Below the pieces are notes generated by a model that ran no database searches, was not told where the DNA came from, and worked only from the letters and a program-made list of their open reading frames with translations. This document shows, in pieces, positions 29,716-64,000 of a DNA stretch of 64,000 nucleotides (within the stretch, counting starts at the first letter, position 1; each line of letters opens with the position of its first letter). Location of the stretch: contig JADFTS010000035.1 of assembly GCA_015680905.1 (NCBI GenBank), positions 1 through 64,000 on the forward strand, in the 5' to 3' direction. A program made the translations under genes and the position numbers. The stretch is from Coptis chinensis. Its lineage: Eukaryota; Streptophyta; Magnoliopsida; Ranunculales; Ranunculaceae.

Positions 29716-30433
29716 TTATTTGTAAAACTTGTTATCATTATCCAAAAAATTCCACTTAAAAACAACAACAACAACAACATTTTCTTTTATTTGAAGAGTA
29801 TATACTACCAAAAAAAAAATCTTTTATTCGAAGAGTAATACTATAAATAGAAAAATAAAAAATAACAACAAAACAAAAACAACAACATTTTCTTTTATTC
29901 GAAGAGTATATACTACAAAAAAAACTATAAAAAATAATAATAATAATAATAAAACATCATCATTTTCTTATTTTTGTAGATTATCCACTTCAAAAAAAAT
30001 AAAAATAAAACCCTTTAAAAGTAAAACAAATCAAAATCTCACAAAAGCAAAGCTAACTGAACTTATTCTGCTAAAATAAAGTCGCGTGCACTACTATATT
30101 AGCTCCAAACAGCTTCCACTATTGAAGTTTGCGCCATCAATTCAGAATATACGTGTTGGTCTAACTACCTTGTGAAACATTCTTCCATATGTTCTACCTC
30201 ATTACAAAGCCACGATCTTCGTCTAGGAAATCTGAAGTTAAAAAACCCATCTTGAAAAAATTAACTTTTCACGTACATACCACGTAGGAGTGTCCAGACA
30301 AAAGCACATGTCTTATTTGGTGTGCTATCTTTTTCCTTTTGTGTGATATTTGTTTGTTTTCATTGATTGGTGTGATATTTTTAACTTTCTTTTGACATGT
30401 TGCATATTGTGCTCGACACACTTTTCGCCGCAG

Positions 30434-31269
30434 TGTTGGCTGAATTTTTTCTCAAGCTTCACAGGTATTTTCTTTCTTCATGACTTGACATTTTGAGAAG
30501 AAAGCATCCTTCTGTTTGTGGGTGGTAAGAACTTTAAGCAAAATTTACACAGTTTTTAGGTTGTATATAGCTTCTTTTTGAATAGGTGTACTTAGTGACA
30601 AAGTCTTGTTTCCTTTTCTATGATGAAAATTGTCTAGAAATCTCACACTAGTATTCGAATTATGATTTCTTCTTAGAAACTTAATATAATATGTACGCTA
30701 TAGCTTTTACATCTTTTCTTGAACATTCATGCACGGAGTATCATTGACAACACATTGTATACAGTTTCCATGTTTCAAATACCGACATGATCATGTCAAG
30801 GATATTTTATGTGATGCATTTTGGAGGGCTGGAGTACAAGTGAAGAAAGAGGCTCCCGTGAATTTTTTCACTGATCCGAATGGGGGAAGATTAACACTTC
30901 GGCCTGTGGATGTATTGGTCTACAGTTGGTTTGAGGGGAAGCATGCGTGTTTTGACGTAACTGGATCCACTCCGTTGGTAGGGCTTGGGAATGGAATATT
31001 TGAGTTGGGAGAAGCAGATAATAGAGCAGCAACAAGGAAGATTTGGAAACACGAGGAGGCTTGTAAAGCTAACCAGCATTTTTTCATTCCGTTCGGTTTC
31101 GACACTTTTGGTTTCTTGGCACAACAATCTGTTAAGCTCCTTAAGTGATTGCAGAAAGTTATGGACTGCAACCTAATGACAACTGGTTCTAACGAGTTTG
31201 CATTCCAGGAGGATAGGATTTGCCGTTCAGAAAGGACTTGCGTCACAGCTTGTTGCACGCTTGTCCTAA
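30434..31269 (+). pseudogene. 1.5-kb unit 3: longest single open stretch of block I
   Basis: The 31-nt exon is 30434-30464 with an intact donor. The main acceptor is mutated (TTTCCATG instead of TTTCCAGG), so splicing at the usual site would fail. The reading frame is open from an ATG inside the intron at 30729 (MHGVSLTTHC) through FKYRHDHVKDILCDAFWRAG, LRPVDVLVYSWFEGKHACFD and SVKLLK to the shared TGA at 31146 (139 codons). A 1-nt insertion near 31205 breaks the tail. Confidence 0.68.
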
Positions 31270-31951
31270 TTATTTGTAAAACTCATTATCATTATCAATA
31301 AAATTTCCACTTAAAAAACAACAACAACAACATTTTCTTTTATTCGAAGAATATATACTACAAAAAAAATTATCTTTTATTCGAAGAGTATATACTATAA
31401 ATAAAAAAATAACAACAACAGAAACAACAACATTTTCTTTTATTCGAAGTGTCTATACTACATAAAAAACTAAAAAAAAAATAATCATTTTCTTTTTTTC
31501 GTAGATTATCCACTACAAAAAAAAAATCCTCTTTAAAAATAAAACAAATCAAAATCTCACAAAAGATAAGCTAACTGAAATTATTCTGCTCAAATACAGT
31601 CGCGTGCAATACTCTATGAGCTCCAAACAGCTTCCACTATTGAAGTTTGCGCTATCAATTCAGAGTATACGTGTTGGTCTAACTACCTTGTGAAACATTC
31701 TTCCATATGTTCTACCTCATTACAAAGCCACGATCTTCGTCAAGGAAATCTGAGGTTAAAAAACCCATCTTGAAAAAATTAACTTTTCATGTACATACCA
31801 CGTAAGAGTGTCCAGACAAAAGCACATGTCTCATTTGGTGTGCTATCTCTTTCCTATTGTGTGATATTTGTTTGTTTTCATTGATTGGTGTGATATTTTT
31901 AACTTTCTTTTGACATGTTGCATATTGTGCTCGACACACTTTTCACCGCAG

Positions 31952-32789
31952 TGTTGGCTGAATTTTTTCTCATGCTTCATAGGTATTTTCTTTCTTCATC
32001 TCTTGACATTTTGAAGAGAAAGCATCCTTCTGTTTGTGGGTGGTAAGAACCTGAAGCAAAATTTACACAGTTTTTAGGTTGTATAAAGTTTTTTTTATGA
32101 ATAAGTGTACTTAGTGACAAAGTTTTGTTTTCTTTTCTATGGTGAAAAAATTGTCTAGAAATCTCACACTAGTATTCGAATTAGGATTTCTTCTTAGAAA
32201 CTTAATATAATATGTACGCAATAGTTTTTACATCTTTTCTTGAACTTTCATGCACGGAGTATCATTGACAACACATTGTATACATTTTCCAGGTTTCAAA
32301 TGCCGATATGATCATGTCAAGGATATTTTATGTGATGCATTTTGGAGGGCTGGAGTACAAGTGAAGAAAGAGGCTCCCGTGAATTTTTTCACTGATTCGA
32401 ATGGGGAAAGATTAACACTTCGGCCTGTGGATGTATTGGTCTAAAGTTGGTTTGTGTGGTGGCATGCGTGTTTTGATGTAACTAGAGCCTCTCCGTTGGT
32501 ACGGCTCGGGAATAGAGTATTTGAGTTGGGTGAAGCAGCTAATAAGGCAGCAGCAGGTAAGATTTGGAAACACGAGGAGGCTTGTAAAGCTAACCAGCAT
32601 TGTTTGATTATGTTCAGTTTCGACACTTTTGGTTTCTTGCCACAACAATATGTTAAGCTCCTTAAGTTATTGCAGAAACTTATGGACTGCAACCTAATGA
32701 CAGGTGGTTCGAACGAGTTTGTATTCAGGAGAATAGGATTTGCCGTTCAGAAAGGACTTGAGTCACAGCTTGTTGCACGCTTGTCCTAA
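31952..32789 (+). pseudogene. 1.5-kb unit 4: the unit without the shared TGA
   Basis: 31-nt exon 31952-31982, intact donor, main acceptor TTTTCCAG before 32293. The frame closes early at a private TAA (32442) after LRPVDVLV. Beyond it the same frame is open for 111 codons to 32789, because the codon that is TGA in the other units is TTA here, giving KLLKLLQKLMDCNLM and ending FAVQKGLESQLVARLS. This is the only unit showing the uninterrupted tail. Confidence 0.72.
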
Positions 32790-33068
32790 TTATTTGAAAA
32801 ACTCATTATCATTATCAATAAAATTTCCAATTAAAAAACAACAACAACAAAATTTTCTTTTATTCGAAGAGTATATACTACAAAAAAAACAAAAAATAAA
32901 AAAAATATATATATTTTCTTTTATTCGAAGAGTATATACTATAAATAAAAAAAATAAAAAAATAACAACAATATTTTCTTTTATTCGAAGAGTATATACT
33001 AAAAAAAAAAACTATAAAAAAAAAAAAAAAAAATCATCATTTTTCTTTTTTTCGTAGGTTATCCACTA

Positions 33069-33069
<1 letters not shown>

Positions 33070-33113
<44 letters not shown>
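33070..33113. repeat. Poly-A tract in a unit spacer
   Basis: About 44 A in a row at the end of the minisatellite spacer of unit 5, an expansion of the short A runs seen there in other units. Confidence 0.85.
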
Positions 33114-33117
<4 letters not shown>

Positions 33118-33548
33118 AACTACTTTAAAAATAAAACAAATCAAAATCTAACAAAAGCAAAGCTAACTGAACTTATTCTGCTCAAATACAGTCGCGTGCA
33201 CTACTCTATAATCTTAGAACAGCTTCCACTATTGAAGTTTGCGCCATCAATTCAGAATATACGTGTTGGTCTAACTACCTTGTGAAACATTCTTCCATAT
33301 GTTCTATCTCATTACAAAGCCATGATCTTCGTCTAGGAAATCTGAAGTTAAAAAACCCATCTTGAAAAAATTATCTTTTCACGTACATACCACACCACGT
33401 AGGAGTGTCTAGACAAAAGCACATCTTTCATTTGGTGTGATATCTCTTTCCTATTGTGTGATATTTGTTTGTTTTCATTGATTGGTGTCATATTTTTAAC
33501 TTTCTTTTGACATGTTGCATATTGTGCTCGACAAATTTTTCGCTGCAG

Positions 33549-33823
33549 TGTTGGCTGAATTTTTTCTCAAGCTTCACAGATATTTTCTTTCTTCATCTCT
33601 TGACATTTTTAGGAGAAAGCATCCTTCTGTTTGGGGGTGGTAAGAACTTGAAGCAAAATTTACACAGTTTTCAGGTTGTATATAGCTTCTTTATGAATAA
33701 GTGTACTTAGTGACAAAGTATTGTTTCCTTTTCTATGATGAAAATTGTTTAGAAATCTCACACTAGTATTCGAATTAGGATTTCTTATTAGAAACTTAAT
33801 ATAATATGTATGCAATAGTTTAG
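33549..33823 (+). pseudogene. 1.5-kb unit 5: truncated by array 3
   Basis: The 31-nt exon (33549-33579) is present but the donor reads ACAGATATT instead of ACAGGTATT. The intron runs normally to TATGCAATAGTTT at about 33822 and then switches abruptly to array 3. The long exon is absent. Confidence 0.7.
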
Positions 33824-44629: not shown

Positions 44630-44984
44630 GGGTTATTTAGACTTTGGTACCACATTTTACACCGATATTAGGAAATAGTACCACTTCTGTCAGTTGACCG
44701 AGTTCACCGAAGTCAAACTGTTCAATCTGTTCTAATTTTCATAATGTCCACAATACCCTCAGGGTTTTTTAGACTTTGGTACCACTTTTTAGACCGATAT
44801 TAGGAAATAGTACCAAATTTCAAAATAATTAGGAAATAGTACCACTTCTGTCAGTTGACCAAGTTGAACGAAGTCGCACTGTTTACAAAACATGCATGCC
44901 CGAGTTAAATAATTTCACCTCTGGTATTTCGTCCTTTATACTTTCGATATTTACCATGCCAACACTGCCAAATGTTCATTCCGA
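44630..44984. repeat. MULE left terminal inverted repeat
   Basis: Pairs with 46488-46854. The module GACTTTGGTACCAC ... TTAGGAAATAGTACCA occurs at its outer end and again from 44762, so the repeat is internally duplicated. Confidence 0.9.
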
Positions 44985-46487: not shown

Positions 46488-46854
46488 TCGGAATGAACAT
46501 TTGGCATGGTAAATATCGAAAGTATAAAGGACGAAATACCGAAGGTGAAATTATTTAACTCGGGCATGCATGTTTTGTGAATAGTGCAACTTCGGTCAAC
46601 TGACAGAAGTGGTACTATTTCCTAATTTTTTTGAAATTTGGTACTCTTTCCTAATATCGGTCTAAAAAGTGGTACCAAAGTCTAAAAAACCCTGAGGGTA
46701 TTGTGGACATTATGAAAATTTGAACAGATTGAAACAGTTTGACTTCGGTCAACTCAATCAACTAATATAAGTGGTACTATTTCCTAATTTTTTTGAAATC
46801 TGGTACTATTTCCTAGTATCGGTATAAAAAGTGGTACCAAAGTCTAAATAACCC
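46488..46854. repeat. MULE right terminal inverted repeat
   Basis: Reverse-complement partner of 44630-44984, ending GTGGTACCAAAGTCTAAATA then ACCC at 46854. It shares the same nested duplication and differs from the left repeat by scattered substitutions and small indels. Confidence 0.9.
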
Positions 46855-47468: not shown

Positions 47469-47952
47469 ATCATCATTTTTTTTTTTTTGTAGATTATCCA
47501 CTACAAAAAAAAATAAAAATAAAAAAAAATCATTTAAAAATAAAAAAAATCAAAATCTCACAAAAGCAAAGCTAACTGAACTTATTCTGCTCAAATACAG
47601 TCGCGTGCAATACACTATAAGCTCCAAACAGCTTCCACTATTGAAGTTTGTGTCATCAATTCAGAATATACGTGTTGGTCTAACTACCTAGTGAAACATT
47701 CTTCCATATGTTCTACCTCATTACAAAGCCACGATCTTCGTCTAGGAAATCTGAAGTTAAAAAACCCATCTTGAAAAAATTAACTTTTCAACGCACATAC
47801 CACGTAGGAGTGTCGGACAAAAGCACATGTCTCATTTGGTGTGCTATCTCTTTCATATTGTGTGATATTTGTTTGTTTTCATTGATTGGTGTGATATTTT
47901 TAATTTTCTTTTTACATGTTGCATATTGTGCTCGACACACTTTTCGCCACAG

Positions 47953-48638
47953 TGTTGGCTGAATTTTTTCTCAAGCTTCACAGGTATTTTCTTTTTTCAT
48001 CTCTTGACATTTTGAGGAGAAAGCATCCTTCTGTTTGGGGGTGGTAAGAACTTGAAGCAAAATTTACACAGTTTTTAGCTTCTATATAGCTTCTTTATGA
48101 ATAGGTGTACTTAGTGACAAAGTCTTGTTTCATTTTCTATAATGAAAATTGTCTAGAAATCTCACTCTAGTATTCGAATTAGGATTTCTTCTTAGAAACT
48201 TAATATAATATGTACGCAATAGTTTTTACATCTTTTCTTGAGCATTCAAGCACAGAGTATCATTGACAACACATTGTATACATTTTACACGTTTCAAATA
48301 CCGACATGATCATGTCAAAGATATTTTATGTGATGCATTTTGGAGGGCTGGATTACAAGTGAAGAAAGAGGCTCCCGTGAATTTTTTCACTGATCCGAAT
48401 GGGGGAAGATTAATACTTCGGCCTTGAGATGTATTGGTCTACAGTTGGTTTGAGGGGAAGCATGCGTGCTTTGATGTAACTGGAGCCACTCCGTTGGTAA
48501 GGCTTGGGAATGGAGTATTTGAGTTGGGAGAAGCAGCTAATAGAGCAGCAGCAGGGAAGATTTGGAAACACAAGGAGGCTTGTAAAGCTAACCAGCATTA
48601 TTTCATTTCGTTCACAGCTTGTTACACGTTTGTCCTAA
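47953..48638 (+). pseudogene. 1.5-kb unit 6: internal deletion in the long exon
   Basis: 31-nt exon 47953-47983 with donor GTATTTTC. The main acceptor is lost (TTTTACACG). A TGA replaces the codon after LRP (48425), and the exon jumps from the HYFISF codons directly to the QLV-like tail at about 48612, deleting about 140 bp that include the site of the shared TGA. Confidence 0.68.
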
Positions 48639-48687
48639 TTATTTGCAAAACTCGTTATCATTATCAATAAAATATCCACTTAAAAAA

Positions 48688-48698
48688 AACAACAACAA

Positions 48699-48736
<38 letters not shown>
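48688..48736. repeat. (AAC)n microsatellite
   Basis: An expansion of the ACAACAACA run that starts every unit spacer, here about 15 triplets. Confidence 0.88.
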
Positions 48737-49388
48737 TTTTCATTTATTCGAAGAGTATATACTACCAAAAAAAAAACTTTTATTCGAAGAGTATATACTA
48801 TAAATAAAAAAATAAAAAATAACAACAACAAAAACAACAACATTTTCTTTTATTCCAAGAGTATATACTTCAAAAAATACTAAAAAAAAAAAAACCCATC
48901 ATCATTTTCTTTTTTTCGTAGATTATCCACTACAAAAAAAAAAATAATAAAAATAATAAATAAAACCCTTTAAAAATAAAACAAATCAAAATCTCACAAA
49001 AGCAAAGCTAACTGAACTTATTCTGCTCAAATACAGTCGCGAGAAATACTCTATAAGCTCCAAACAACTTCCACTATTGAAGTTTGCGCCATCAATTCAG
49101 AATATTCGTGTTGGTCTAACTACCTTGTGAAACATTCTTCCATATGTTCTACCTCATTACAAAGCCACGATCTTCATCTAGGAAATCTGAAGTTAAAAAA
49201 CCCAACTTGAAAAAATTAACTTTTCGCATTACATACCACGAGGGAGTGTCGGACAAAAGCACATGTCTCATTTGGTGTGCTATCTGTTACCTATTGTGTG
49301 ATATTTGTTTGTTTTCATTGATTGGTGTCATATTTTTAACTTTCTTTTGACATGTTGCATATTGTGCTCGACACACTTTTCGCCGCAG

Positions 49389-49887
49389 TGTTGGCTGAAT
49401 TTTTTCTCAAGCTTCACAGGTATTTTCTTTCTTCATCTCTTGACATTTTGAGGAGAAAGCATCCTTCTGTTTGTGGGTGGTAAGAACTTGAAGCAAAATT
49501 TACACAGTTTTTAGGTTGTATATAGCTTCTTTATGAATAAGTGTACTCAGTGACAAAGTCTTGTTTCCTTTTCTATGATGAAAATTATCTAGAAATCTCA
49601 CACTAGTATTCGAATTAGGATTTCTTCTTAGAAACTTAATATAATATGTACGCAATAGTTTTTACATCTTTTCTTCAACATTCATACACGGAGTATCATT
49701 GACAACACATTGTATACATTTTCTAGGTTTCAAATACCGACAACAATCTGTTAAGCTCCTTAAGTGATTGCAGAAAGTTATGGATTGCAACCTAATGACA
49801 GCTGGTTCTAACGAGTTTGTATTCAGGAGGATAGGATTTGCCGTTCAGAAAGGACTTGTGTCACAGCTTGTTGCACGCTTGTTCTAA
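49389..49887 (+). pseudogene. 1.5-kb unit 7: most of the long exon deleted
   Basis: 31-nt exon 49389-49419, intact donor, acceptor TTTTCTAG before 49727. After GTTTCAAATACCGACA the sequence jumps to CAACAATCTGTTAAGC at about 49740, deleting about 340 bp. The shared TGA and the tail FVFRRIGFAVQKGL follow to TAA at 49885. Confidence 0.7.
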
Positions 49888-50142
49888 TTATTTATAAAAC
49901 TCGTTATCATTATCAATAAAATTTCCACTTGAAAAACAACAACAAAAACATTTTCTTTTTATTCGGAGAGTATATACTACAAAAAAATTTAAAAAAAAAT
50001 TTTATTCGAAGAGTATATACTATAAATAAAAAAATAACAACAACATTTTCTTTTATTCGAAGAGTATATACTACTACAAAAAAACTATAATAAAAATTTA
50101 AAAAAAATCATCATTTTCTTTTTTAGAGTAGATTATCCACAA

Positions 50143-50160
<18 letters not shown>

Positions 50161-50215
<55 letters not shown>
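50161..50215. repeat. (TA)n-(CA)n compound microsatellite
   Basis: About 21 TA units followed directly by about 7 CA units, at the spacer end before unit 8. Confidence 0.92.
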
Positions 50216-50216
<1 letters not shown>

Positions 50217-50635
50217 TTTAAAATAAAACAAAACAAAATCAACCAAAAGAAAAGCTAACTGAATTTATTCTGCTCAAATACAGTCGCGTGCAATACTCTA
50301 TAAGCTCCAAACAACTTCCACTATTAAAGTTTGCACCATCAATTCAGAATATAAGTGTTGGTCTAACTACCTTGTGAAACATTCTTCCATATGTTCTACC
50401 TCATTACAAAGTCACGATCTTCGTCTAGGAAATCCGAAGTTAAAAAACCCATCTTGAAATAATTAACTTTTCACATACATACCACGTAGGAGAGTCCAGA
50501 CAAAAGCACACGTCCCATTTTTTGTGCTATCTCTTTCATATTGTGTGATATTTGCTTGTTTTCATTGATTGGTGAGATATTTTTAACTTTCTTTTGACAT
50601 GTTGCATATTGAGCTCGACACACTTTTCGCCGAAG

Positions 50636-51468
50636 TGTTTGCTGAATTTTTTCTCAAGCTACACAAGTATTTTCTTTCTTCATCTCTTGACATTTTGAGG
50701 TGAAAACATCCTTCTGCTTGGGGGTGGTAAGAACTTGAAGCAAAATTTACGCAGTTTTTAGGTTGTATATAGCTTCTCTATGAATAAGTGTACTTAGTGA
50801 CAAAGTCTTGTTTCCTTTTCTATTATGAAAATTGTCTAGAAATATCACACTAGTATTCGAATTAGGATTTCTTTTTAGAAACTTAATATAATATGTACGC
50901 AATAGTTTTTACATCTTTTCTTGAACATTCATTCACGGATTATCATTGACAACACATTGTATACATTTTCCATGTTTCAAATACCGACATGATCATGTCA
51001 AGGATATTTTATGTGATGCATTTTGGAAGGTCGGAGTACAATGAAGAAAAAGAGGCTCCCATGAATTTTTTCACCGATCCGAATGGGGAATATTAACACC
51101 GGCCTGTGGATGTACTGATCTACAATTGGTTTGAGGGGAGACATGCGTGTTTTGATGTAACTGGAGCCTCTCCGTTGGTAGGGCTTGGGAATGGAGTATT
51201 TGAGTTGGGAGAAGCAGCTAATGGAGCAGCAACAGGAAAGATTTGGAAACACGAGGAGGCTTGTAAACCTAACCAGCATTGTTTCATTCCGTTCAGTTTC
51301 GACACTTTTGGTTTCTCGGCACAACAATCTGTTAAGCTCCTTAAGTGATTGCAGAAAGTTATGGACTGCAACCTAATGATAGTTGTTTCTAATGAGTTTG
51401 TATTCAGGAGGATAGGATTTGCCGTTCAGAAAGGACTTGCGTCACAGCTTGTTACACGCTTGTTCTAA
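50636..51468 (+). pseudogene. 1.5-kb unit 8: host unit of the retrotransposon
   Basis: The 31-nt exon is flanked by altered sites (acceptor CCGAAG, donor CACAAGTAT), and the main acceptor is CCATG. A frame change near 51040 is followed by an open stretch 51106-51348 with WFEGRHACFDVTGASPLVGL, KIWKHEEACKPNQHC and FSAQQSVKLLK to the shared TGA. Termination at 51466. The retrotransposon lies 27 bp further on, separating the exon from its AATAAA signal, which now follows 57044. Confidence 0.7.
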
Positions 51469-51490
51469 TTATTTTCTAAAACTCGTTATC

Positions 51491-51495
51491 ATTAT
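51491..51495. other. Left target-site duplication ATTAT
   Basis: Five bases directly before the 5' LTR, repeated at 57040-57044. In uninterrupted units the site reads ATCATTATCAATAAAA with a single ATTAT. Confidence 0.95.
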
Positions 51496-51796
51496 TGTAG
51501 TAGCCATATTCAGGGATGTATCACATAAGTATTGGGCCAAGAGATAAGGCCCAGACCATAGTGTGCATTGGGCCCAGAAAATAGGCCCAGGACCAAACTA
51601 TGTCCGATGAGTAACCCTAAGAGAGGGATATAAAAAGGAAGAGGAGGGGAGATAGAGAGGGGGCTGAGAATGGAGGTAGAGAGGGGTGAGGAGTGAGAGG
51701 TGAACTACGGCGGCTTGATCCCGAAAGGGTACATAGGCAACCTAATTGGTGCAGCCGATCTAAAAGAGAGCGAGGTCGCGGTATTGTGGTGCGACA
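51496..51796 (+). repeat. 5' LTR, 301 bp
   Basis: TG...CA ends, several GGCCCA words in its first half and a purine-rich GAGGGGAGATAGAGAGGG block after the TATA-like sequence. Confidence 0.95.
51628..51636 (+). promoter_or_regulatory. TATA-like box of the LTR promoter
   Basis: ATATAAAAA in GGGATATAAAAAGGAAGAGG, 133 bp into the LTR and repeated at 56871-56879. The position suits transcription starting inside the LTR, as retrotransposition requires. Confidence 0.6.
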
Positions 51797-51798
51797 AA

Positions 51799-51816
51799 TG
51801 GCGCCGTCTGTGGGGA
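51799..51816 (+). other. Primer-binding site
   Basis: TGGCGCCGTCTGTGGGGA begins 2 bp after the 5' LTR. TGG pairs with the CCA end of a tRNA, and TGGCGCCGT...GGGGA sites are common in plant Ty3/gypsy-type elements. This suggests the element's parentage although no polymerase gene is left. Confidence 0.8.
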
Positions 51817-51848
51817 CTCGATGAGTAGAGAGATGGGGGTGAGAAAAA

Positions 51849-52640
51849 ATGTGGTCGCGATTGCTATTTGGGGTTTGGGGTTTAGAAAAACTAGAGAAAG
51901 GTGGGACCTTTCCAGAGAAGCGTAACAGAGAGAAGACGGAAGTTAACAGGAGTACATTGAAGACACTCGTAGAAAAATGTCTTGCTTATCATCTCCACCA
52001 ATTCCAACACTATCATCTCTCCAACCCCAAAACCCAAACCCAACCAAGAAGAACGGCTATACACTTCGCTCAAATCATCAAAACTGGTTTAACACAAAAC
52101 GACCTTGTCTTCGGTCAACTCTTCTTATGTCGCTCTGTTTCCAATACCATGAACTATGCTCGTCACCTTTTCGATAAACTCCATCACCCCAAACTCTTCT
52201 TTTACAATGCGACGATTAAAGGCTACTCACTACACGACTTCCATCAAGATGCATTGACTTTATACACTAATGAGGTATCGTTTTGTTACTTGTGATTCTT
52301 TTACTTTTCTGGTTGTTTTAAGATCGGTTTCTACTTTTGGAAAGATCCACATTGGCAAAGAGTTGCATGGACTTGTTTTAAAAATGGGTTGTGTTGAAAA
52401 GCCATTGTTCAATTTGCTTTGATAGATATGTATTGTGCTTGTGATTTGTCGAAGTTATGGACGTTGGGTGTTTGATAAGATTGTTGATAAAGATGTTATT
52501 TGTTGGAATACTATGATAGCTGGATTTATAAAATGTGGGTAGTATGGGTAGGCTTAAAGAGGTTTTTTGATGCACTGTTAGGAATGTTTCGAGTTGGAAT
52601 ACTATTGTGGATATTGTAAATGTGGGCATCCTTGTTCTTG
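51849..52640 (+). pseudogene. Captured PPR gene fragment
   Basis: Seen: an open frame (51849-52295) contains AIHFAQIIKTGLTQNDLVFG, TMNYARHLFDKLHHPKLFFY and NATIKGYSLHDFHQDALTLY. Further on, in broken frames, are GKELHGLVLKMG, DMYCACD, VFDKIVDKDVICWNTMIAGF and SSWNTIV. Known: HxxIIKTGL, YARxLFDxxxxPxxFxxNxxIxGY and DVxxWNTMIxG are the pattern of plant pentatricopeptide-repeat proteins, which bind organellar RNA. The N-terminal part of a P-L-S-type protein is represented, with stops after 52295. It is transcribed in the same sense as the retrotransposon, so it could be part of the element's RNA. Confidence 0.82.
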
Positions 52641-54412
52641 ATTCAGTTAATGCCGCAACCAAAATGATTGAGGATCCGCAGAGAAACTTGGAACAGCGTC
52701 AAAAGGTCTCATGAAGATGCAGTTCTTTCAAATCACTAAATGAGAAATTCTCCGACTTGCATGTAAGGAATGGACTAGCTTTGGAAATACTTGGACTGAT
52801 TTATAGTGAGCTTAAACAGTTAACACTTAGCGTATGTGAAGATGCCCAAGTGAATGGGTTGGATCTTAAAGAAGAAAATTTGTTTGATCTCCTACATCCC
52901 GGTAAGTTCATATACCTCTTGAATCGAATGAGAGAGCCGCTGCTTGGCGAGAGCTTGCTAATTAAGTCGGCAAATCTTTGAGCTGGAGTTCAAGTTGATT
53001 GATATAACACAAGATGTTGCAGAATTGAGGAAGAATAGTGTTGATTCAAAATCCTTCCTTAAGTTGGTGGAAGATGTCGGGGCAGTAGTACAGTTTGAAT
53101 GACATGGACGCCGACTCGATAATCCGTCGATCCTCATATCCGGAATCTTTGATTGCTTCTCTTGTTCAGAAATACACGAAGCTAGTGAACAAGTCAGCTT
53201 TTGTAGGGAAGAGTTTGGTGAAGGAGATGGAAAATAGTGAATTACAAAGCGAAGGTGCACCGGTTAAGTTCCTTGAGTTCTCAACAGAAGCTGAAAATCA
53301 CATCTTCGAGAAAGTTTGGGAAAGATGGAGCATACTTGTAGAAGCTCTTCGTTCGAAGTTACAGACCAAAGGAGTTGAACTTGAGCAATGCGAGAAGAGG
53401 GTATCTTCTCGTCGGGAGAAGCTTAGCATTCTTTGTTCGCGAAAGGAAAAGGCTTGGTCAGGCAAATGAGATAATCTAAAGCGGTCTCTCGAGAGATGTC
53501 ATCTGAACTTGAGAGGTGCTCACAGGAGGTGCACTTTAAAGACACTAGACTTCAGGGATGTTGAAACCAAACTAAAAGCCTATTCAGAGGCAGGTGAGCG
53601 TGTTGAAGCTTTGGAATCGAGCTTTCATACATTCGAACTCTGCTTGCACGCATTACGAGATTCGTTTCTTCTTAAAGATTCTATTCTTCTTCGTGAGGAT
53701 TGAGGAGGTTTTGGAACAAATAGAATTGCCCGAGCATTTTCATTCGGAGATATAATTGAAAAGATTGAGTGGCGGGCGAGGTCGGTTCCTAGGAGTTCCT
53801 TCCCGACGACCCGATTGGGATCAGAAAAAATTCTCCGGGGAATTTGTATTCGAGACTGGTTTTGTGGTTAATGATGGCTGGAAAGATGATGTCTACCCTA
53901 TCTCAAATCCACGGGTTAGAGGACTTGAAAAGAAAAATGGAGGAGCTCCAAAAGGTGGGAGGAGGTCTTGGACGGGATGGACATGCCTTTGCAATTCAAG
54001 GGTCCATGGAGACGTAAGAAAGGTACAATGGTTGGGAAGTGCTTTCTCGAGGCTCATAATGATATAGATTCTCTTAGAAAAAAGATTGAGAATTTTGAAA
54101 GTTATTGTGGATCACTAACTCGGACTTGGAATCAGCCATGTACGAAAGTATCTGATCTTGAGGTGGCTCTTCAAGGTGTAACAAATGAAAGGGAGCTTCT
54201 CTCTTGCAACTAGGAGAAATCCTTGGAGAAAGTTACACAGTATGAGCTTGAGAAATTTAACTTGCAAAATGAAGTTGCTCGTTTGCAGGAGAATCTTGAA
54301 AATGATAATCAACTCCATCTTCGTGTTGAAGGCGAGATTAGGAGATTGCAGGTTTTGGTTAGTGATGCATTGCAGGACCAAGCGCAGAGAACATAGCTTG
54401 TGGTGGCAGTGA
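52641..54412 (+). pseudogene. Captured fragment of a large coiled-coil protein gene
   Basis: Seen, in changing frames: LHVRNGLALEILGLIYSELK, LFDLLHPGKF, VQKYTKLVNKSAFVGKSLVK, LRSKLQTKGVELEQCEKRVS, TKLKAYSEAGERVEALESSF, FLLKDSILL, QIELPEHFHSE, AHNDIDSLRKKIENFESYCG, DLEVALQGVTNERELLS and RVEGEIRRLQVLVSDALQD. Known from memory: the order and wording resemble the very long plant coiled-coil protein typified by Arabidopsis AT4G31570 (Golgi or endosome-associated, function poorly known). At least eight frame breaks are visible. Close to one continuous region of the source is represented with little or no intron sequence, so capture through RNA or from one large exon are both possible. It ends AENIACGGSD at 54413, where GTPase Der begins. 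Confidence 0.72.
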
Positions 54413-54670
54413 TATGAAGAGGATGTCGAGGAGAAGCTTCAGAGTCTTAATTGGACACCGATAGTTTATTCCACTGCAATGATTGGCTGCAGTGTTGAAG
54501 AGGTCATTGCTGCTGCTAGTATTGTGGAGAAAGAAAGGTCGAGAAGACTAAGTACAGCTATTTTGAATCAGGTAGTGCGGGAAGCATTAGCTTTCATATC
54601 ACCTCCAAGGACCAGAGGTGGAAAAAGAGGACGTCTTTATTATTGCACACAGGAGTGTAGGATGCGTTAA
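54413..54670 (+). pseudogene. Captured GTPase Der (EngA) C-terminal fragment
   Basis: Seen: one open frame reads YEEDVEEKLQSLNWTPIVYS, TAMIGCSVEEVIAAASIVEK, ERSRRLSTAILNQVVREALA and FISPPRTRGGKRGRLYYCTQ, then ECRMR and a stop. Known: Der is a double-GTPase ribosome assembly factor, and plants have a plastid form. W-x-P-I-V-Y-S-A begins the link from the second G domain to the KH-like C-terminal domain, which carries the conserved PPRxxGxKxRxYYxTQ motif. Similarity stops right after YYCTQ, where the normal protein continues with RPPTFVFFVN. The junction with the coiled-coil fragment is direct and out of frame by one base. The 86-codon frame itself has no stop or shift, the best-preserved coding piece in the element. 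Confidence 0.88.
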
Positions 54671-55009
54671 GCGTGGGCTGTTATTATGTGATCGGAGAAG
54701 ACGAGACGAGATGAATTGTTGTGTGCCCTGCATCGATTATGATGACGGTGCTTCGGGCTGGGTGCATGGTGTTTGTTCGATTGGTGTGTTTCGGTATATG
54801 ATCGGTTGTGGAGGTTAATTGCTCGGCATTGGTGATGCTTGTAGTGAATGCTCATGTCAGTTATGATGGTGGCTATGAGTGGTGTGACTGACTGGTAGTG
54901 TTGTCTGGTAATGATGATTACAAAAAACGTAGAGAGGCATACACCGCAGCAGGTTACAGAGAAAGAGAAAGATCCGCTGTACCGCGGAACAGAGTGGAGA
55001 TTGAGCTAG
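54671..55009 (+). other. Unassigned part of the retrotransposon interior
   Basis: GC-neutral, GT-rich sequence between the Der fragment and the minisatellite, with no recognisable domain. It may be a fourth captured piece or element sequence. Confidence 0.4.
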
Positions 55010-56590
55010 TATTGAGAGATGGACCCATCTCACCTATAAAGCCAGGGAATGGGGCCCTCCGCGAGCCGGAGTTCCCGGATGCACATTCCAAAGGAGAGCG
55101 AGGGTCCGAGAAGACTCTTCCGGATATGTCGGGGGCATTCCGGGAGAGCGGAGGGGTTCGAGAAGACCCTTCGCGGATATGTCGTGGGGCTATCCGAATG
55201 AGTGCGGGGGGATGAGCCCTCTGCGGACCCTCGCGGTCCAAACTTGGCCGCGTGTGGGGCAGGCAAAGCTGTCCGGACCGGGCGGTCAAGCCTCGGCGGG
55301 ATAGGATATGTGGGACGGGGAGATCCGAATCAAACATGGGGCAAGCTGAGTTGCCCCTCATCAGACTCCACTCCTGAGCAGAGACAACGGGGGGATGAGC
55401 CCCCCGCAGAGATGACATCCGAATCAAACATGGGGGCAAGCTGAGTTGCCCCTCACTAGACTCCCACACCGAAAGCGAGATAGCGGGGGATGAGCCCTCC
55501 TCATGAACAACCGAAAGCAAACCCGGGAGTGGGATGAGCCCTCCGCGGATCAGTGATGCTAGAGATACACAGGGCAATAAGAGAGCCCCAACAGGCAAGA
55601 GCTCGGGGAGTGGGATGAGCCCTCCCGTAGGGATCGAGATGCTAGAGATACATGGGGCAATGAGAGAGCCCTAACCGGGCGACAACCCGGTCGAGCCGTG
55701 GAGTGGGATGAGCCCTCCCGCGGATCGAGAGACGCTGGAGATACATGGGGCAATGGGAGAGCCCCAACCGGGATGGCCCAACCGGTCGAGACCGCTGAGA
55801 TGGGATGAGCCCTCCGCGGATCGGTCGAGACGCTAGAGATACATGGGGCAATGAGAGAGCCCTATGGGGCGACAACCCGGTCGAGACCGCGGAGTGGGAT
55901 GGATGGCCCCCGCGGATATTAGAGATGTTAGAGATACATGGGGCAATGGGGCAATGAGAGAGCCCCAACCGGCGACATCCCGGCAAGAGAGTCCCCCAGG
56001 CGATGAGTGGGTGGGATGAGCCCTTCTTCACGGGAAAGGCAAGAGACAGGCAGGTCAAAGAGAGTAGCCCCAGAGCCTGGTTGAGCCGCAGGTCGGAGTT
56101 ACAAGAGATATGCGGACATGAGATCCGAATCAAACATGGGGGCAAGCTGGGTTGGCCCTCATCAGGCTTCTTTCCAGAACAGAGATAGTAAGGGTGATGA
56201 GTCTTCCGCAAGCCGGAGTTCCAAACTGCAATTGGAAGGGGACGAGTCCCTTTGCGGACGGGATATTGAGGTCCATGAGTAAGGGCAAAGGGGATGAGCC
56301 CTTTGGCGGATACAATGTTGAGTTCTGTGAAAGGGTGAGACACTCCGTGCACATAGTAGTAAATTATGTGGAGGAGAGTTTATGGCCGGGACAAGACACT
56401 CCACGGGTACGGTAGTGAATTTTGTAGATGAGAGTGGATAGCTGGGGTGAGACACTTCGCAGGCATGAGGATTGAGTTTGAAGAGTGAGAGCGAAGGGGA
56501 TAAGACCCTTCGTGGATACGCTAATGAGTTATATGAATGAGAACCGATAGAGTGAGACACTTCACAGACATACGGTCCAGTAGCAGAGTA
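55010..56590. repeat. GC-rich degenerate minisatellite of the retrotransposon
   Basis: GGGATGAGCCCT(C)CGCGGA and GAGATACATGGGGCAATGAG recur throughout. The second word starts at 55561, 55644, 55737, 55835 and 55930, spacing 83-98 bp. Flanking parts (55010-55550 and 56000-56590) hold more degenerate relatives such as ATGAGCCCTTT and GTGAGACACT. Its high GC content contrasts sharply with the AT-rich arrays around the element. Long minus-strand open frames here are a consequence of the repetition. Confidence 0.85.
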
Positions 56591-56724
56591 CATGGATATG
56601 AGATGTCCTGAGGAGAAGAAGACTACGTACAGTCACAGGACAATGTGGATATCTAGAGTTCAGAGAAAGAGACAAGGAAGTTTGAGGACTTCTCGGGTCC
56701 GCCGTCGTCATCGCCGCCGAACCC

Positions 56725-56738
56725 GAGAAGGGGGCAAT
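56725..56738 (+). other. Polypurine tract
   Basis: GAGAAGGGGGCAAT sits directly before the 3' LTR, the position from which plus-strand DNA synthesis is primed. Confidence 0.8.
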
Positions 56739-57039
56739 TGTAGTAGCCATATTCAGGGATGTATCACATAAGTATTGGGCCAAGAGATAAGGCCCAGACC
56801 ATAGTGTGCATTGGGCCCAGAAAATAGGCCCAGGACCAAACTATGTCCGATGAGTAACCCTAAGAGAGGGATATAAAAAGGAAGAGGAGGGGAGATAGAG
56901 AGGGGGCTGAGAATGGAGGTAGAGAGGGGTGAGGAGTGAGAGGTGAACTACGGCGGCTTGATCCCGAAAGGGTACGTAGGCAACCTAATTGGTGCAGCCG
57001 ATCTAAAAGAGAGCGAGGTCGCGGTATTGTGGTGCGACA
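56739..57039 (+). repeat. 3' LTR, 301 bp
   Basis: Differs from the 5' LTR at one position (56976). It is followed by the second ATTAT at 57040-57044 and then by the rest of the interrupted unit (CAATAAAATTTCC). Confidence 0.95.
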
Positions 57040-57726
57040 ATTATCAATAAAATTTCCACTTAAAAAAAACAACAACAACAACAACATTTTCTTTTATTCG
57101 AAGAGATATGCTACAAAAAAAAATCTTTTATTCGAAAAGTATATACTATAAATAAAAAAATAAAAAATAACAACAATAAAAACAACAACATTTTCTTTTA
57201 TTCGAAGAGTATATACTAAAAAAAAAAAAAAAAAAAACATCATCAATTTCTTTTTTTCGTAGATTATCCACTATAAAAAAATAAAAATTAAAAAAAATAA
57301 AAATCCTTTAAAAATAAAACAAATCAAAATCTCATAAAAGCAAAGCTAACTGAACTTATTCTGCTCAAATACAGTCGCGTGCAATACTCTTTAAGCTCCA
57401 AACAGCTTCCACTATTGAAGTTTGCGCCATCAATTCAGAATATACGTGTTGGTCTAACTACCTTGTGAAACATTCTTCCATATGTTCTACCCCATTACAA
57501 AGACACGATCTACGTCAAGGAAATCTGAAGTTAAAAAACCCATCTTGAAAAAATTAACTTTTCACGTACATACCACGTAGGAGTGTCCAGACAAAAGCAC
57601 ATGTCTCATTTTGTGTGCTATCTCTTTCCTATTGTGTGATATTTGTTTGTTTTCATTGATTGGTGTGATATTTTTTACTTTCTTTTGACATGTTGCATAT
57701 TGTGCTCGACACACTTTTCGCCGCAG

Positions 57727-58562
57727 TGTTGGCTGAATTTTTTCTCAAGCTTCACAAGTATTTTCTTTCTTCATCTCTTGACATTTTAAGGAGAAAGCAT
57801 CATTCTGTTTGGGGGTGATAAGAACTTGAAGCAAAATTTACACAGTTTTTAGGTTGTGTATAGCTTCTTTATGAATAGGTGTACTTAGTGACAAAGTCTT
57901 GTTTCCTTTTCTAGGATGAAAATTGTCTAAAAATCTCACACTAGTTTTCGAATTAGAATTTCTTCTTAAAAAGTTAATATAATATGTACGCAATAGTTTT
58001 TACATCTTTTCTTGAACATTCATGCACGGAGTATCATTGACAACACATTGTATACATTTTCCATGTTTCAAATACCGACCTGATCATGTCAAGGATATTT
58101 TATGTGATGCATTTTGGAGGGCTGGAGTACAAGTGAAGAAAGAGGTTCCCGTGAATTTTTTCACTGATCCGAATGGGGGAAGATTAACACTTCGGCCTGT
58201 GGATGTATTGATCTACTGTTGGTTTGAGGGGATACTTGTGTGTTTTGATGTAACTAGAGCCTCTCCGTTTGTAGGGCTTGGGAATAGAGTATTTGACTTG
58301 GGAGAAGCAGCTAATAGAGCAGCAGCAGGGAAGATTTGGAAACACGAGGTGGCTTGTAAACCTAACCAGCATTGTTTCATTCCGTTCAGTTTCGACACTT
58401 CTGGTTTCTTGGCACAACAATCTGTTAAGCTCCTTAAGTGATTGCAGAAAGTTATGGACTGCAACCTAATGATAGCTGGTTCAAACGAGATTGTATTCTG
58501 GAGGATAGGATTTGCCTTTTCAGAATGGACTTGTGTCGCTGCTTGTTGCACGCTTGTCCTAA
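57727..58562 (+). pseudogene. 1.5-kb unit 9: long open stretch
   Basis: 31-nt exon 57727-57757 (donor altered to CACAAGTAT), main acceptor mutated to CCATG. The frame from ATG at 58022 is open for 139 codons through FKYRPDHVKDILCDAFWRAG, LRPVDVLIYCWFEGILVCFD and KIWKHEVACKPNQHC to the shared TGA at 58439. A 1-nt insertion near 58520 disrupts the tail. Confidence 0.68.
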
Positions 58563-58843
58563 TTATTTGTAAAAGTTGTTATCATTATCAATAAAATTTC
58601 CACTTAAAAAACAACAACAACAACAACATTTTCTTTTATTCAGAGTGTATATACTAAAAAAAAAAAAAAATAAAAAAAATAATCATTTATTCGAAGAGTA
58701 TAAACTATAAATAAATAAATAACAACAACATTTTCTTTTATTCGAAGAGTATATACTATAAAAAAACTATAAAAAAAAATCATCATTTTCTTTTTATCGT
58801 AGATTATACACTACAAAAAAAATAAAAAAATAAAAATAAAAAT

Positions 58844-58845
<2 letters not shown>

Positions 58846-58889
<44 letters not shown>

Positions 58890-58901
58890 CACACACACAC
58901 T
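58846..58901. repeat. (CA)n microsatellite
   Basis: About 27 CA units with one interruption, at the spacer end before unit 10. Confidence 0.92.
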
Positions 58902-59320
58902 TTTAAAATAAAACAAAACAAAATCAACCAAAAGCAAAGCTAACTGAACTTATTCTGCTCAAATACAGTCGCGTGCAATACTCTATAAGCTCCAAACAGC
59001 TTCCACTATTAAAGTTTGCGCCATCAATTCAGAATATAAGTGTTGACCTAACTACCTTGTGAAACATTCTTCCATATGTTCTACCTCATTACAAAGCCAC
59101 GATCTTCATCTAGGAAATCTGAAGTTAAAAAACCCATCTTGAAATAATTAACTTTTCAAGTACATACCACGTAGGAGTGTCCAGACAAAAGCACATATCC
59201 CATTTGTTGTGCTATCTCTTTCCTATTGTATGATATTTGTTTGTTTTCATTGATTGGTGTCATATTTTTAACTTTCTTTTGACGTGTTGCATATTGAGCT
59301 CGACACACTTTTCGCCGCAG

Positions 59321-60156
59321 TGTTGGCTGAATTTTTTGTCAAGCTTCACAGGTATTTTCTTTCTTCATCTCTTGACATTTTGAGGAGAAAGCATCCTTCT
59401 GTTTGGGGGTGGTAAGAACTTGAAGCAAAATTTAAGCATTTTTTAGGTTGTATATAGCTTCTTTATGAATAAGTATACTTAGTGACAAAGTCTTGTTTCC
59501 TTTTCTATGATGAAAATTGTCTAGAAATCTCACACTAGTATTCGAATTAGGAATTCTTCTTACAAACTTAATATAATATGTATGCAATAGTTTTTACATC
59601 TTTTCTTGAACATTCATGCACGGAGTATCATTAACAACACATTGTATACATTTCCTAGGTTTCAAATACCGACATGATCATGTCAAGGATATTTTATGTG
59701 ATGCATTTTGGAAAGGCTGGAGTACAAGTGAAGAAAGAGGCTCCCGTGAATTTTTTTACTGATCCGAATGGGGGAAGATTAACACTTCGGCCTGTGGATG
59801 TATTGCTCTACAGTTGGTTTGAGGGGATACTTGCGTGTTTTGATGTAACTAGAGCCTCTCCGTTTGTAGGGCTTGGGAATGGAGTATTTGATTTGGGAGA
59901 AGCAGCTAATAGAGCAGCAGCAGGGAAGATTTGGAAACACGAGGAGGCTTTTAAAGCTAACCAGCATTGTTTCATTCCATTCAGTTTCGACACTTTTGGT
60001 TTCTTGGCACAACAATTTGTTAAACTCCTTAAGTGATTGCAGAAAGTTATGGACTGCAACCTAATGATAGCTGGTTCTAACGAGGTTGTATTCAGGAGGA
60101 TAGGATTTGCCGTTCAGAAAGAACTTGTGTCACAACTTGTTGCACGCTTGTCCTAA
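59321..60156 (+). pseudogene. 1.5-kb unit 10
   Basis: 31-nt exon 59321-59351 with intact flanking AG and GT, main acceptor TTTCCTAG before 59659. A 1-nt insertion (GGAAAGGCTGG, near 59712) shifts the frame early in the long exon. Beyond it the frame is open with LRPVDVLLYSWFEGILACFD and KIWKHEEAFKANQHC to the shared TGA at 60034. Tail FAVQKELVSQLVARLS to TAA at 60154. Confidence 0.7.
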
Positions 60157-60430
60157 TTATTTGTAAAACTCATTATCATTATCAATAAAATTTCCACTTA
60201 AAAAACAACAACAACAACATTTTCTTTTATTTTGAGAGTATATACTTCAAAAAAAAAAAAATAAAAAAAATCTATTATTCGAAGAGTATATACTGTAAAT
60301 AAAAAAATAATAATAACAACAACATTTTCTGTTATTCGAAGAGTATATACTACAAAAAAAACTATAAAAAAAATCATCAATTTCTTTTTTTTCGTAGATT
60401 ATCCACTACAAAAAAAAAACAAAACAAAAC

Positions 60431-60451
60431 GCACACACACACACACACACT
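60431..60451. repeat. (CA)n microsatellite
   Basis: About ten CA units at the spacer end before unit 11, in the same position as the CA repeats before units 8 and 10. Confidence 0.88.
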
Positions 60452-60870
60452 TTTAAAATAAAACAAAACAAAATCAACCAAAAGCAAAGCTAACTGAAGT
60501 TATTATGTTCAAATATAGTCGTGTGCAATACTCTATAACTCCAAACTGCTTCCACTATTGAAGTTTGCGCCATCAATTCAGAATATAAGTGTTGGTTTAA
60601 CTACCTTGTGAAACATTCTTCCATATGTTCTACCTCATTACAAAGCCACGATCTTCGTCTTGGAAATCTGAAGTTAAAAAACTCATCTTGAAAAAATTAA
60701 CTTTTTCAATGCACATACCACGTAAGAGTGTCCGGACAAAAGCATATGTCTCATTTGGTGTGCTATCTCTTTCCTATTGTGTGATATTTGTTTGTTTTCA
60801 TTGATTGGTGTCATATTTTTAACTTTCTTTTGACATGTTGCATATTGTGCTCAACACACTTTTTCCGCAG

Positions 60871-61710
60871 TGTTAGCTGAATTTTTTCTCAAGCTCCACA
60901 GGTATTTTCTTTCTTAATCTCTTGACATATTGACGAGAAAGCATCCTTCTGTTCGGGGGTGGAAAGAACCTAAAGCAAAATTTACGCAGTTTTTAGGTTG
61001 TATAGAACTTCTTTATGAATAGCTGTACTTACTGACAAAGTCTTGTTTCCTTTTCTATGATGAAAAAATTGTCCAGAAGTCTCACACTAGTATTCGAATT
61101 GGGATTTCTTCTTAGAAACAAAATATAATATGTACGCAATAGTTTTTACATATTTTCTTGAACATTCATGTACGGAGTATCATTGACAGTACATTGTACA
61201 CATTTTCCAGGTTTCAAATACCGATATTATCATTTCAAGGATATTTTATGTTATGCATTTCGGAGGGTTGGAGTACAAGTGAAGAAAGAGGCTCCCGTGA
61301 ATTTTTTCAGTAATCCGAATGAGGGGAGATTAACACTTCGGCCTGTGGATGTATTGGTCTACAGTTGGTTTGAGGAGAGGCATGTGTGTTTTGATGTAAC
61401 TGGAGCATCTCCGTTGGTAGGGATTGGGAATGGTGTATTTGAGTTGGGAGAAGCAGCTAATAGAGCAGCAGGAAGGATGATTTGGAAACACGATGAGGCT
61501 TGTAAAGCTAACCAGCTTTGTTTCATTCCATTCAGTTTCGACACTTTTAATTTCTTGGCACAGCAATCTGTTAAGCTCCTTAAGTGATTGCAGAAAGTTA
61601 TGGACTACAACCTAATGACAACTGGTTCTAACGAGTTTACATTCAGGAGGATAGTATTTGTCGTTCAGAAAGGACTTGCGTCACAGCTTGTTGCACGCTT
61701 GTCCTCATTA
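60871..61710 (+). pseudogene. 1.5-kb unit 11
   Basis: The 31-nt exon (60871-60901) now contains TAG in the expected frame (TGT TAG CTG). Main acceptor TTTTCCAG before 61211. The long exon is open through FKYRYYHFKDILCYAFRRVG, LRPVDVLVYSWFEERHVCFD and WKHDEACKANQLC to the shared TGA at 61585. The usual final stop is lost (TCCTCATTA), so the tail would read through. Confidence 0.7.
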
Positions 61711-61863
61711 TTTGTAAAACTCGTTATCATTTTCAATAAAATTTCCACTTAAAAAAAAACAACAACAACAACATTTTCTTATATTCGGAGAGTATATAGT
61801 ACCAAAAAAAAAACAAAACAAAACATTTTCTTTTATTCGAAGAGTATATACTACAAAAAAAAC

Positions 61864-61900
<37 letters not shown>

Positions 61901-62368
61901 AACAACAACATCATCATTTTCATTTTATTCGTAGATTATCCACTACAAAAAAAAATAAAACAAATTAAAATCTCACAAAAGCAAAGCTAACTGAACTTAT
62001 TCTGCTCAAATACAGTCGCATGCACTACTTTATAAGCTCCAAACAACTTCCACTATTGAAGTTTGCGCCATCAATTCAGAATATACGTGTTGTTCCAACT
62101 ACCTTGTGAAACATTCTTCCATATGTTCTACCTCATTATAAAGCCACGATCTTCGTCAAGGAAATCTGAAGTTAAAAAACTCATCTTGAAAAAATTAACT
62201 TTTCACGTACATACCACGTAAGAGTGTCCAGACAAAATGCACATGTCTCATTTTGTGTTCTATCTCTTTCCTATTATGTGATATTTGTTTGTTTTCATTG
62301 ATTGGTGTGATATTTTTAACTTTCTTTTGAAATGTTGCATATTGTGCTCGACACACTTTTTGCCGCAT

Positions 62369-63204
62369 TGTTAGGTGAATTTTTCTCAAGCTTCGCAGGT
62401 ATTTTCTTTCTTCATCTCTTGACATTTTTGGGAGAAAACATTCTTCTGTTTGGGGGTGGTAAGAACCTGAAGCAAAATTTACGCAGTTTTTTGGTTGTAT
62501 AGAGCTTCTTTATGAATAGTTGTACTTAGTGACAAAGTCTTGTTTCCTTTTCAATGATGAAAAAATTGTCTAGAAATCTCACACTAGTATTCGAATTAGG
62601 ATTTCTTCTTAGAAATTTAATATAATATGTATGCAATAGTTTTTACATCTTTTCTTGAACATTCATGCACGGAGTATCATTGACAGTACATTGTATACAT
62701 TTTCCAGGTTTCAAATACCGACATGATCATTTCAAGGATATTTTATGTTATGCATTTTGGAGGGTTGGAATACAAGTGAAGAAAGAAGCTCCCGTGAATT
62801 TTTTCACTGATCTGAATGAGGGAAGATTAACACTTCGGCCTGTGGATGTATTGGTCTACAATTGGTTTGAGGGGAGGCATGCGTGTTTTGATGTAACTGG
62901 AGCCTCTCTATTGGTAGGGCTTGGGAATGGAGTATTTGAGTTGTGAGAAACAGCTACTAGAGCAGCAGCAGGCAAGATTTGGAAACACGAGGAGGCTTGT
63001 AAAGCTAACCTGCATTGTTTCATTCCGTTCAGTTTCGACACTTTTGGTTTCTTGGCACAACAATCTGTTAAGCTCCTTAAGTGATTGCAGAAAGTTATGA
63101 ACTACAACCTAATGACAGCTGGTTCTAACGAGTTTGTATTCAGGAGGATAGGATTTGCCGTTCATAATGGACTTGCGTCACAGCTTGTTGCACGCTTGTC
63201 CTAA
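62369..63204 (+). pseudogene. 1.5-kb unit 12
   Basis: The 31-nt exon is altered: acceptor CCGCAT, an in-frame TAG and one base missing. Main acceptor TTTTCCAG before 62708. Open through FKYRHDHFKDILCYAFWRVG and LRPVDVLVYNWFEGRHACFD to a private TGA at 62944 after GNGVFEL. The shared TGA and normal tail to 63204 follow. Units 11 and 12 share DILCYAF and a short extra A run near the start of the intron, so they are closest relatives. Confidence 0.7.
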
Positions 63205-63239
63205 TTATTTGTAAAACTCGTTATCATTTTCAATAAAAT

Positions 63240-64000
63240 TTCCACTTAAAAAACAACAACAACAACATTTTCTTTTATTCGAAGAGTATATAATACAAAA
63301 AAATAACAAAAAAAAAACCATTTTCTTTTATTCGAAGAGTATATACAATAAATAAAAAAATAAAAAAAATAACAACAACAAAAAGAACAACATTTTCTTT
63401 TATTCGAATAGTATATACTACAAAAAAACTATTGAAAAAAATACAACGTCATCATTTTCTTTTTTTCGTATTTTATCCAATAAAAAAAAAAAAAAAAAAA
63501 ATAAATGAAAAAAACCCTTAAAAATCAAAAAAATCAAAATATCACAAAAGCAAAGCTAACTGAATTTATTCTGCTCAAATACAGTCGCGTGCACTACTCT
63601 ATAAGCTCCAAACAGCTTCCACTATTGAAGTTTGCGCCATCAATTCAGAATATACATGTTGGTCTAACTACCTTGTGAAACATTCTTCCATATGTTCTAC
63701 CTCATTACAAAGCCACGATCTTCGTCTAGGAAATCTGAAGTTAAAAAACCCATCTTGAAAAAATTAACTTTTCACGTACATACCACGTAAGACTGTCCAG
63801 ACAAAAGCACATGTCTCATTTGGTGTGTTATCTCTTTCCTATTGTGTGATATTTGTTTGTTTTCATTGATTGGTGTGATATTTTTAACTTTCTTTTGACA
63901 TGTTGCATATTGTGCTCGACACACTTTTTGCCGCAGTGTTAGCTGAATTTTTTTTGAAGCTTCATAGTTATTTTCTTTCTTCATCTCTTGACATTTTAAG
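63240..64000. repeat. 1.5-kb unit 13, cut by the window end
   Basis: Spacer and first half of another unit. The 31-nt exon region near 63936-63968 again reads TGT TAG CTG and the donor is altered (CATAGTTAT), as expected for a relative of units 11 and 12. Confidence 0.8.

Follow-up and report, generated by a model that had tools for sequence, protein, structure and literature searches.

The 64,000-nt stretch of Coptis chinensis (Ranunculaceae) DNA analysed here (positions 1 to 64,000 of contig JADFTS010000035.1, assembly GCA_015680905.1; hereafter the window) contains at 51496-57039, on the + strand, a young, non-autonomous long terminal repeat (LTR) retrotransposon whose interior is built from pieces of three host genes, encoding a PPR protein, a coiled-coil protein and the GTPase Der. 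The element is one member of a family that captured many different genes, and this capture proceeded via spliced mRNA. An earlier interpretation made from the letters of the window (the sequence-only reading) had proposed the capture of segments from three unrelated host genes by an LTR retrotransposon, and this proposal is supported. What is new here is the scale: among the family members examined, nearly all are collages of cDNA from more than one gene. The genome search covered a 935.6-Mb assembly of 116 contigs, in which the contig of the window (C85) is a small one.

The whole element is bounded by two LTRs of 301 bp (51496-51796 and 56739-57039, both +), which start with TGTAG, end with GACA and differ solely by A/G at LTR position 238. 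The primer-binding site (PBS) TGGCGCCGTCTGTGGGGA (51799-51816, +) lies 2 nt beyond the 5′ LTR, and the polypurine tract (PPT), read from the sequence as the purine run GAGAAGGGGG (56725-56734, +), lies before the 3′ LTR. The element is flanked by a target-site duplication (TSD) ATTAT, the left copy at 51491-51495 and the right copy, seen directly in the sequence, at 57040-57044. The sequence-only reading had placed the ends of the element exactly, and the 301-bp LTRs, PBS, PPT and 5-bp duplication described in it are all present. The interior starts with the PPR gene fragment (51932-52626, +), corresponding to nt 1761-2511 of its donor locus L037. It shares a 10-nt microhomology TAAATGTGGG (52617-52626, +) with the following golgin-like coiled-coil gene fragment (52617-54414, +), whose donor is L044 on contig C3. 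The Der fragment (54413-54653, +; donor on contig C7) consists of two exons joined at 54501/54502. These three pieces had been recognised correctly before, while the ~2-kb GC-rich non-coding 3′ region at 54654-56738 (+), which contains ~93-95-bp repeats and is common across the family, went unmentioned.

The host site of the element is one unit of a tandem array with a unit length of ~1.5 kb. When the flanks of the insertion are joined, nine sister units within the window can be aligned across them and lack a duplication, with ATTAT present once in seven of these units and ATTTT in two. Such empty sites test the TSD more strictly than a single locus could. From the single LTR difference and a substitution rate of 1.3e-8 per site and year, an insertion age of ~0.13 million years was calculated. 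With paired TG..CA LTRs, TSD, PBS and PPT the element has the features of an LTR retrotransposon; instead of the terminal inverted repeats of Pack-MULEs or Helitron ends without TSD, it possesses LTRs and a 5-bp TSD. A scan of the window against Rfam gave nothing at gathering scores.

The donors of the three fragments are located on three different large contigs (C5, C3 and C7), none of which is the contig of the window. The closest source of the PPR piece is an intact open reading frame (ORF) of 707 aa on C5 (L037), which is 88-92% identical, and the captured part reaches from ~46 nt 5′ of the donor's start codon to roughly codon 235. Of the 14 matches to the PPR piece in the genome, one is the window itself, eleven are other elements of the family, one is the C5 locus and one, of 60 nt, lies on C6. 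For the PPR piece in the window, Pfam gave no PPR match, and none was found in window frame 1; the piece was recognised by way of its intact donor and of longer copies in related elements. The coiled-coil piece matches its donor on C3 with 92.9% and 94.5% identity, and the protein relatives of this donor include ones labelled 'lava lamp' and 'golgin'. For the Der piece, matches to Pfam KH_dom-like (2.8e-06) and PDB 2hjg (3e-07) were obtained; a second copy of the donor gene is found on contig C72. All three fragments have the same sense as the element, as stated in the sequence-only reading.

The capture via mRNA follows from the lack of donor introns in the Der fragment of the window and of further Der and coiled-coil introns in its relatives. 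The 242-nt intron of the Der donor is absent exactly from the window copy (join 54501/54502) and also from L020, L036 and L039. The Der pieces of L012, L013, L034-L036, L038 and L039 lack two more introns of the donor, the alignment being free of gaps for L035 and L036 and slightly gapped for the rest, and all three missing Der introns have GT-AG type ends. L012, L013, L034 and L035, in which the coiled-coil gene starts upstream of its ATG, also lack a GT-AG intron of this gene (3190-3312 in joined donor coordinates). In six members, 15 of the 18 sense frames contained a Pfam family (E<=0.01), compared with 0 of the 18 antisense frames, and blastn of the PPR, coiled-coil and Der donors against the oriented elements gave plus matches only, except for one 31-nt minus match in L034. 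The cargo derives from genes elsewhere in the genome, is inserted in sense and is spliced where introns permit a test. A donor stretch of 74 nt (L044 1829-1902; GTAAGT...TGTGCAG) is likewise absent at 53952/53953 and in all five copies of the window type. Because the donor reads through this stretch in an open frame, it was rejected as proof of splicing in the sense of an ordinary intron; given its good splice-site-like ends it may be a cryptic intron, or else a chance deletion.

The combined pattern of LTR end and PBS occurs 210 times in the genome when up to 3 mismatches are allowed, and the reversed pattern, used as control, 0 times; the 210 junctions may include members bearing gag and pol. 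LTR matches were evaluated for the best 40 of 630 candidates, and a part of the 3′ region (56100-56738) was present at all of the best 40 of 466 candidates. Twenty members were examined (window, L009-L015, L017-L021, L034-L036, L038, L039, L042 and L043), which were picked by similarity to the LTR or the PPR piece of the window, so that the shares given here are not family-wide rates. Host gene pieces were present in all 20, and two or more genes in 19 of them; outside the PPR, coiled-coil and Der cases the multi-gene count rests on different Pfam families, with donors not located. Nine cargo sets were distinguished. The most frequent ones are PPR + coiled coil + Der in five members (window, L009, L010, L011, L014), PPR + Der + coiled coil in four (L012, L013, L034, L035) and PPR + Der in three (L036, L038, L039). 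The other sets are UBR4-type + coiled coil + Der (L020), PRA1 + DUF502 (L015) together with PRA1 + PPR (L017), counted as one set, XH + PPR (L018, L043), HSP70 + PPR + DEAH-type helicase (L019), the channel-like RSN1_7TM (L021) and PLAC8 + M18 peptidase + C2 (L042). No gag, pol or other retroelement Pfam domain was detected at E<=0.01 in the sense frames of 18 of the 20 members (all except L009 and L011; several scanned in the non-shared part only, with L043 among those scanned in part). When the ends were allowed to shift, a 5-bp TSD, different in each case, was found in 13 of 19 members tested. L035 has partial LTRs only, and L043 has one LTR in the examined sequence, its 3′ region being known from a genome-wide match.

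Several loci and segments were excluded. L040 and L041 have the LTR without a match to the 3′ region and together gave one weak Myb-like and one weak glycosyl hydrolase match; L016 contains one LTR with the 3′ region, and L037 is the PPR donor locus. An insert of ~740 nt in the coiled-coil part of L035 (7150-7884) was not counted as a further capture: it has the inverted ends CATTGTCACCAAAT/ATTTGGTGACAATG and no Pfam match on either strand, and it is probably a DNA transposon that arrived later.

Related collages also occur in the genome annotation. The annotated Coptis proteins IFM89_011233 (P0007), IFM89_024714 (P0012) and IFM89_027192 (P0017) are chimeras with coiled-coil pieces. The first of these (L035 4930-8073) overlaps a family element, and its EFG_C tail was not found in L035. 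The second corresponds to C3:9058673-9061566, where HSP70, 4-alpha-glucanotransferase, coiled coil and Der follow in a row. Caution is thus advised with the Coptis annotation, as some of its genes are collages and one or more of these overlap a family element.

The search for other copies that had been suggested in the sequence-only reading was carried out and yielded four further full-length insertions on C4, C2, C5 and C3, with the same fragments and the same junctions as in the window. These sister copies share both the junctions and substitutions against all three donors. Capture preceded the spread of the copies and took place in steps, PPR and Der being acquired before the coiled coil, which later entered Der. 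Three arrangements document these steps. In L036, L038 and L039, PPR is followed by Der. In L012, L013, L034 and L035, PPR is followed by ~300 nt of other sequence, by Der up to donor position 6543 and then by the coiled coil; in L013 the interposed stretch was read by eye as a second PPR gene. In the five members of the window type, PPR is followed by the coiled coil and then by Der, which in the window resumes at donor position 6566. According to the simplest history, the coiled-coil mRNA would have been inserted into Der after the capture of PPR and Der, with a loss of 22 nt, because Der ends at donor position 6543 in L013 and resumes at 6566 in the window. In the same history, two later cargo types would have arisen by different internal deletions, the window type by loss of the segment between two copies of TAAATGTGGG. 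The substitutions against the donor that are common to the five window-type copies amount to 22 in ~560 nt for PPR, 12 in ~241 nt for Der and 17 in ~1793 nt for the coiled coil, all three lengths being approximate (Fisher p 1e-5 and 5e-5). The coiled-coil piece thus appears to be younger than the other two, in agreement with the capture order, with the reservation that constraint on the donor genes may bias the counts.

Taken together, these data are very probably explained by a family of non-autonomous LTR elements into which host mRNAs are incorporated through template switching. An element of this kind would keep the ends needed in cis, i.e. LTRs, PBS, PPT and the GC-rich 3′ region, and would carry host cDNA in the place of gag and pol, with the proteins presumably supplied in trans by another, autonomous element. 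Host mRNAs would be present alongside the element RNA during reverse transcription, and the reverse transcriptase would jump within one particle from the element RNA to a host mRNA and back (copy choice). Template switching fits because the pieces are in sense, spliced where testable, cut at both ends and free of poly(A) at the visible junctions. Jumping of this kind would also account for internal deletions, such as that joining PPR to the coiled coil at TAAATGTGGG, and for the mosaic pattern of similarity between copies. The window element is identical to L014 over 54196-54645, yet 7-22% different from it in 23 of 37 segments compared, and it is within 0.7% of L011 over 56296-56895 and up to 32% different elsewhere; mosaicism by recombination among copies would follow from the switching process.

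Several observations weigh against this interpretation. Microhomology, read by eye, gives switching no more than partial support. It is strong at two joins, with 10 nt at one and 6 nt (or 4 when compared with the donor) at the other, but amounts to just 2 nt at each of two further joins, a length that often arises by chance, and the 10-nt microhomology may be the mark of a later internal deletion instead of a capture. A fifth join, from Der to the 3′ region with 3-6 nt of microhomology, was deduced solely from the starts of BLAST matches. Mosaicism could result from gene conversion instead. With respect to splicing, the coiled-coil joins 6034/6938 and 3862/5049 in related elements are not clean GT-AG introns and would represent deletions or skipped exons; moreover, the PPR donor is a single ORF in the captured part and hence offers no intron test, and the Der capture begins within an exon. 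The case is read from genomic sequence. Finally, Pfam and protein searches with a stretch of a candidate interval on C4 identified no autonomous partner. This interval (C4:14783-29246, 14.4 kb) is bounded by a PBS and a 3′ region of the family and is long enough for an autonomous element. Within it, and bearing on a possible derivation of the family from the Ty3/gypsy Tat lineage, L053 (C4:19900-20900) resembles by eye a broken gypsy integrase, for which these searches gave no confirmation. DNA similar to L053 is high-copy (best 40 of 1308 candidates evaluated) and may be nested. The Tat, Athila and TAR lineages are described as expanded in a Coptis chinensis genome paper (PMC8166882).

As an alternative to the uptake of co-packaged free mRNA, copies of the element could have landed beside each donor, been transcribed into it, and, after splicing, recombined back into the element. 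Retroviral transduction is often explained by such read-through, and the resulting cargo would likewise be in sense and spliced. The passages on the maize element Bs1 in a 2026 review (PMC13317346) place it under transduction. However, read-through requires an insertion beside each of many genes, and the family LTR and 3′ region were not found around the three donors in 9.9, 9.4 and 7.6 kb searched, with L013 as positive control. Furthermore, the PPR and coiled-coil pieces start shortly before the ATG, whereas upstream read-through is expected to bring along upstream or intronic DNA. Read-through transduction is regarded as unlikely. Processed pseudogenes made by LINEs and inserted successively into an LTR element would be spliced as well, but the fragments abut or overlap, the 3′ ends of the donors are missing from them, and the visible junctions are free of poly(A). 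The coiled-coil piece sits within Der, where a short stretch was lost and none duplicated; matches to the donors run in sense, and five copies have these junctions in common. This explanation is already largely refuted and very improbable; independent insertion after landing, named beforehand as an outcome that would speak against the element as captor, is also contradicted by the lack of separate duplications seen around the fragments. An assembly chimera or misjoined contig, the other such outcome and suggested by the small size of C85, is refuted and has next to no probability, since the same junctions recur at four unrelated loci on chromosome-size contigs, three with their own different TSD and the fourth (L011) with none found, and since the window element is cleanly inserted in a tandem unit.

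The gene capture by template switching proposed here can be compared with several known systems. Pack-MULEs and Helitrons form collages of fragments from several genes, which are captured as DNA and often with introns; the Coptis family likewise combines several genes in one mobile element, but its cargo is spliced and in sense only. Like LARD and TRIM elements it lacks gag and pol and would be mobilised in trans. In contrast to these, its cargo is identifiable host cDNA that varies by member and not a conserved non-coding core, and its size and LTR length fit poorly to the class limits of both. Bs1 is a single low-copy element that keeps part of its own gag, unlike the Coptis family with its 210 LTR-PBS junctions, nine cargo sets among 20 members examined and no gag in the 18 scanned. 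According to the part of the review dealing with it (PMC13317346), the LTR element Bs1 contains parts of three unrelated host genes, as does the element in the window. Multi-gene capture of sense cDNA as in Bs1 was found here, with the splice status established for Der and the coiled coil. Because of the Bs1 precedent, multi-gene capture by an LTR element was already established; the sequence-only reading rightly called it rare, and unknown would have been wrong. Host gene fragments inside intact LTR elements are also shared with the gene-carrying LTR retrotransposons of maize, rice and sorghum. In maize, the relevant sections of one study (PMC2774510) report 425 intact LTR elements with gene fragments, none with more than one standard nuclear gene under the conditions used, whereas 19 of 20 examined Coptis members, assessed by other methods, carry two or more. 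For rice and sorghum, gene capture by LTR elements is described as common (PMC3726574), the abstract giving 672 captured genes in rice and 1,343 in sorghum and a section of the text 1,343 proteins in 1,318 rice elements. A literature search for Coptis chinensis, retrotransposon and gene capture found no paper, with subscription papers mostly outside its reach, and no such gene-collage LTR family is named in the titles and abstract beginnings of related literature.

As a rule, exon shuffling through capture at the RNA level has been inferred from isolated examples. The Coptis genome provides related and dated copies from which capture order, splice status and joining points are readable, and thereby the frequency of host-mRNA uptake by reverse transcriptase, the choice of mRNAs and the expression of chimeric frames become testable. 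The chances are about even that the family constitutes a standing engine of gene shuffling at the RNA level, in which hundreds of non-autonomous elements with interiors of nearly all host cDNA exchange modules and add mRNAs, some of their long chimeric frames being annotated as Coptis proteins. If so, the family would have an unusual tolerance of host mRNA during packaging or reverse transcription.

Outside the element, the window is characterised by two large tandem arrays with units of ~600 bp and ~1.5 kb (at 5817-18849, 27235-33711 and 47498-63887), the element being located in the second array. In addition, the segments 26255-26579, 44630-44962 and 46501-46854 are mutual inverted repeats over 93-140 nt, with 89-98% complementarity.

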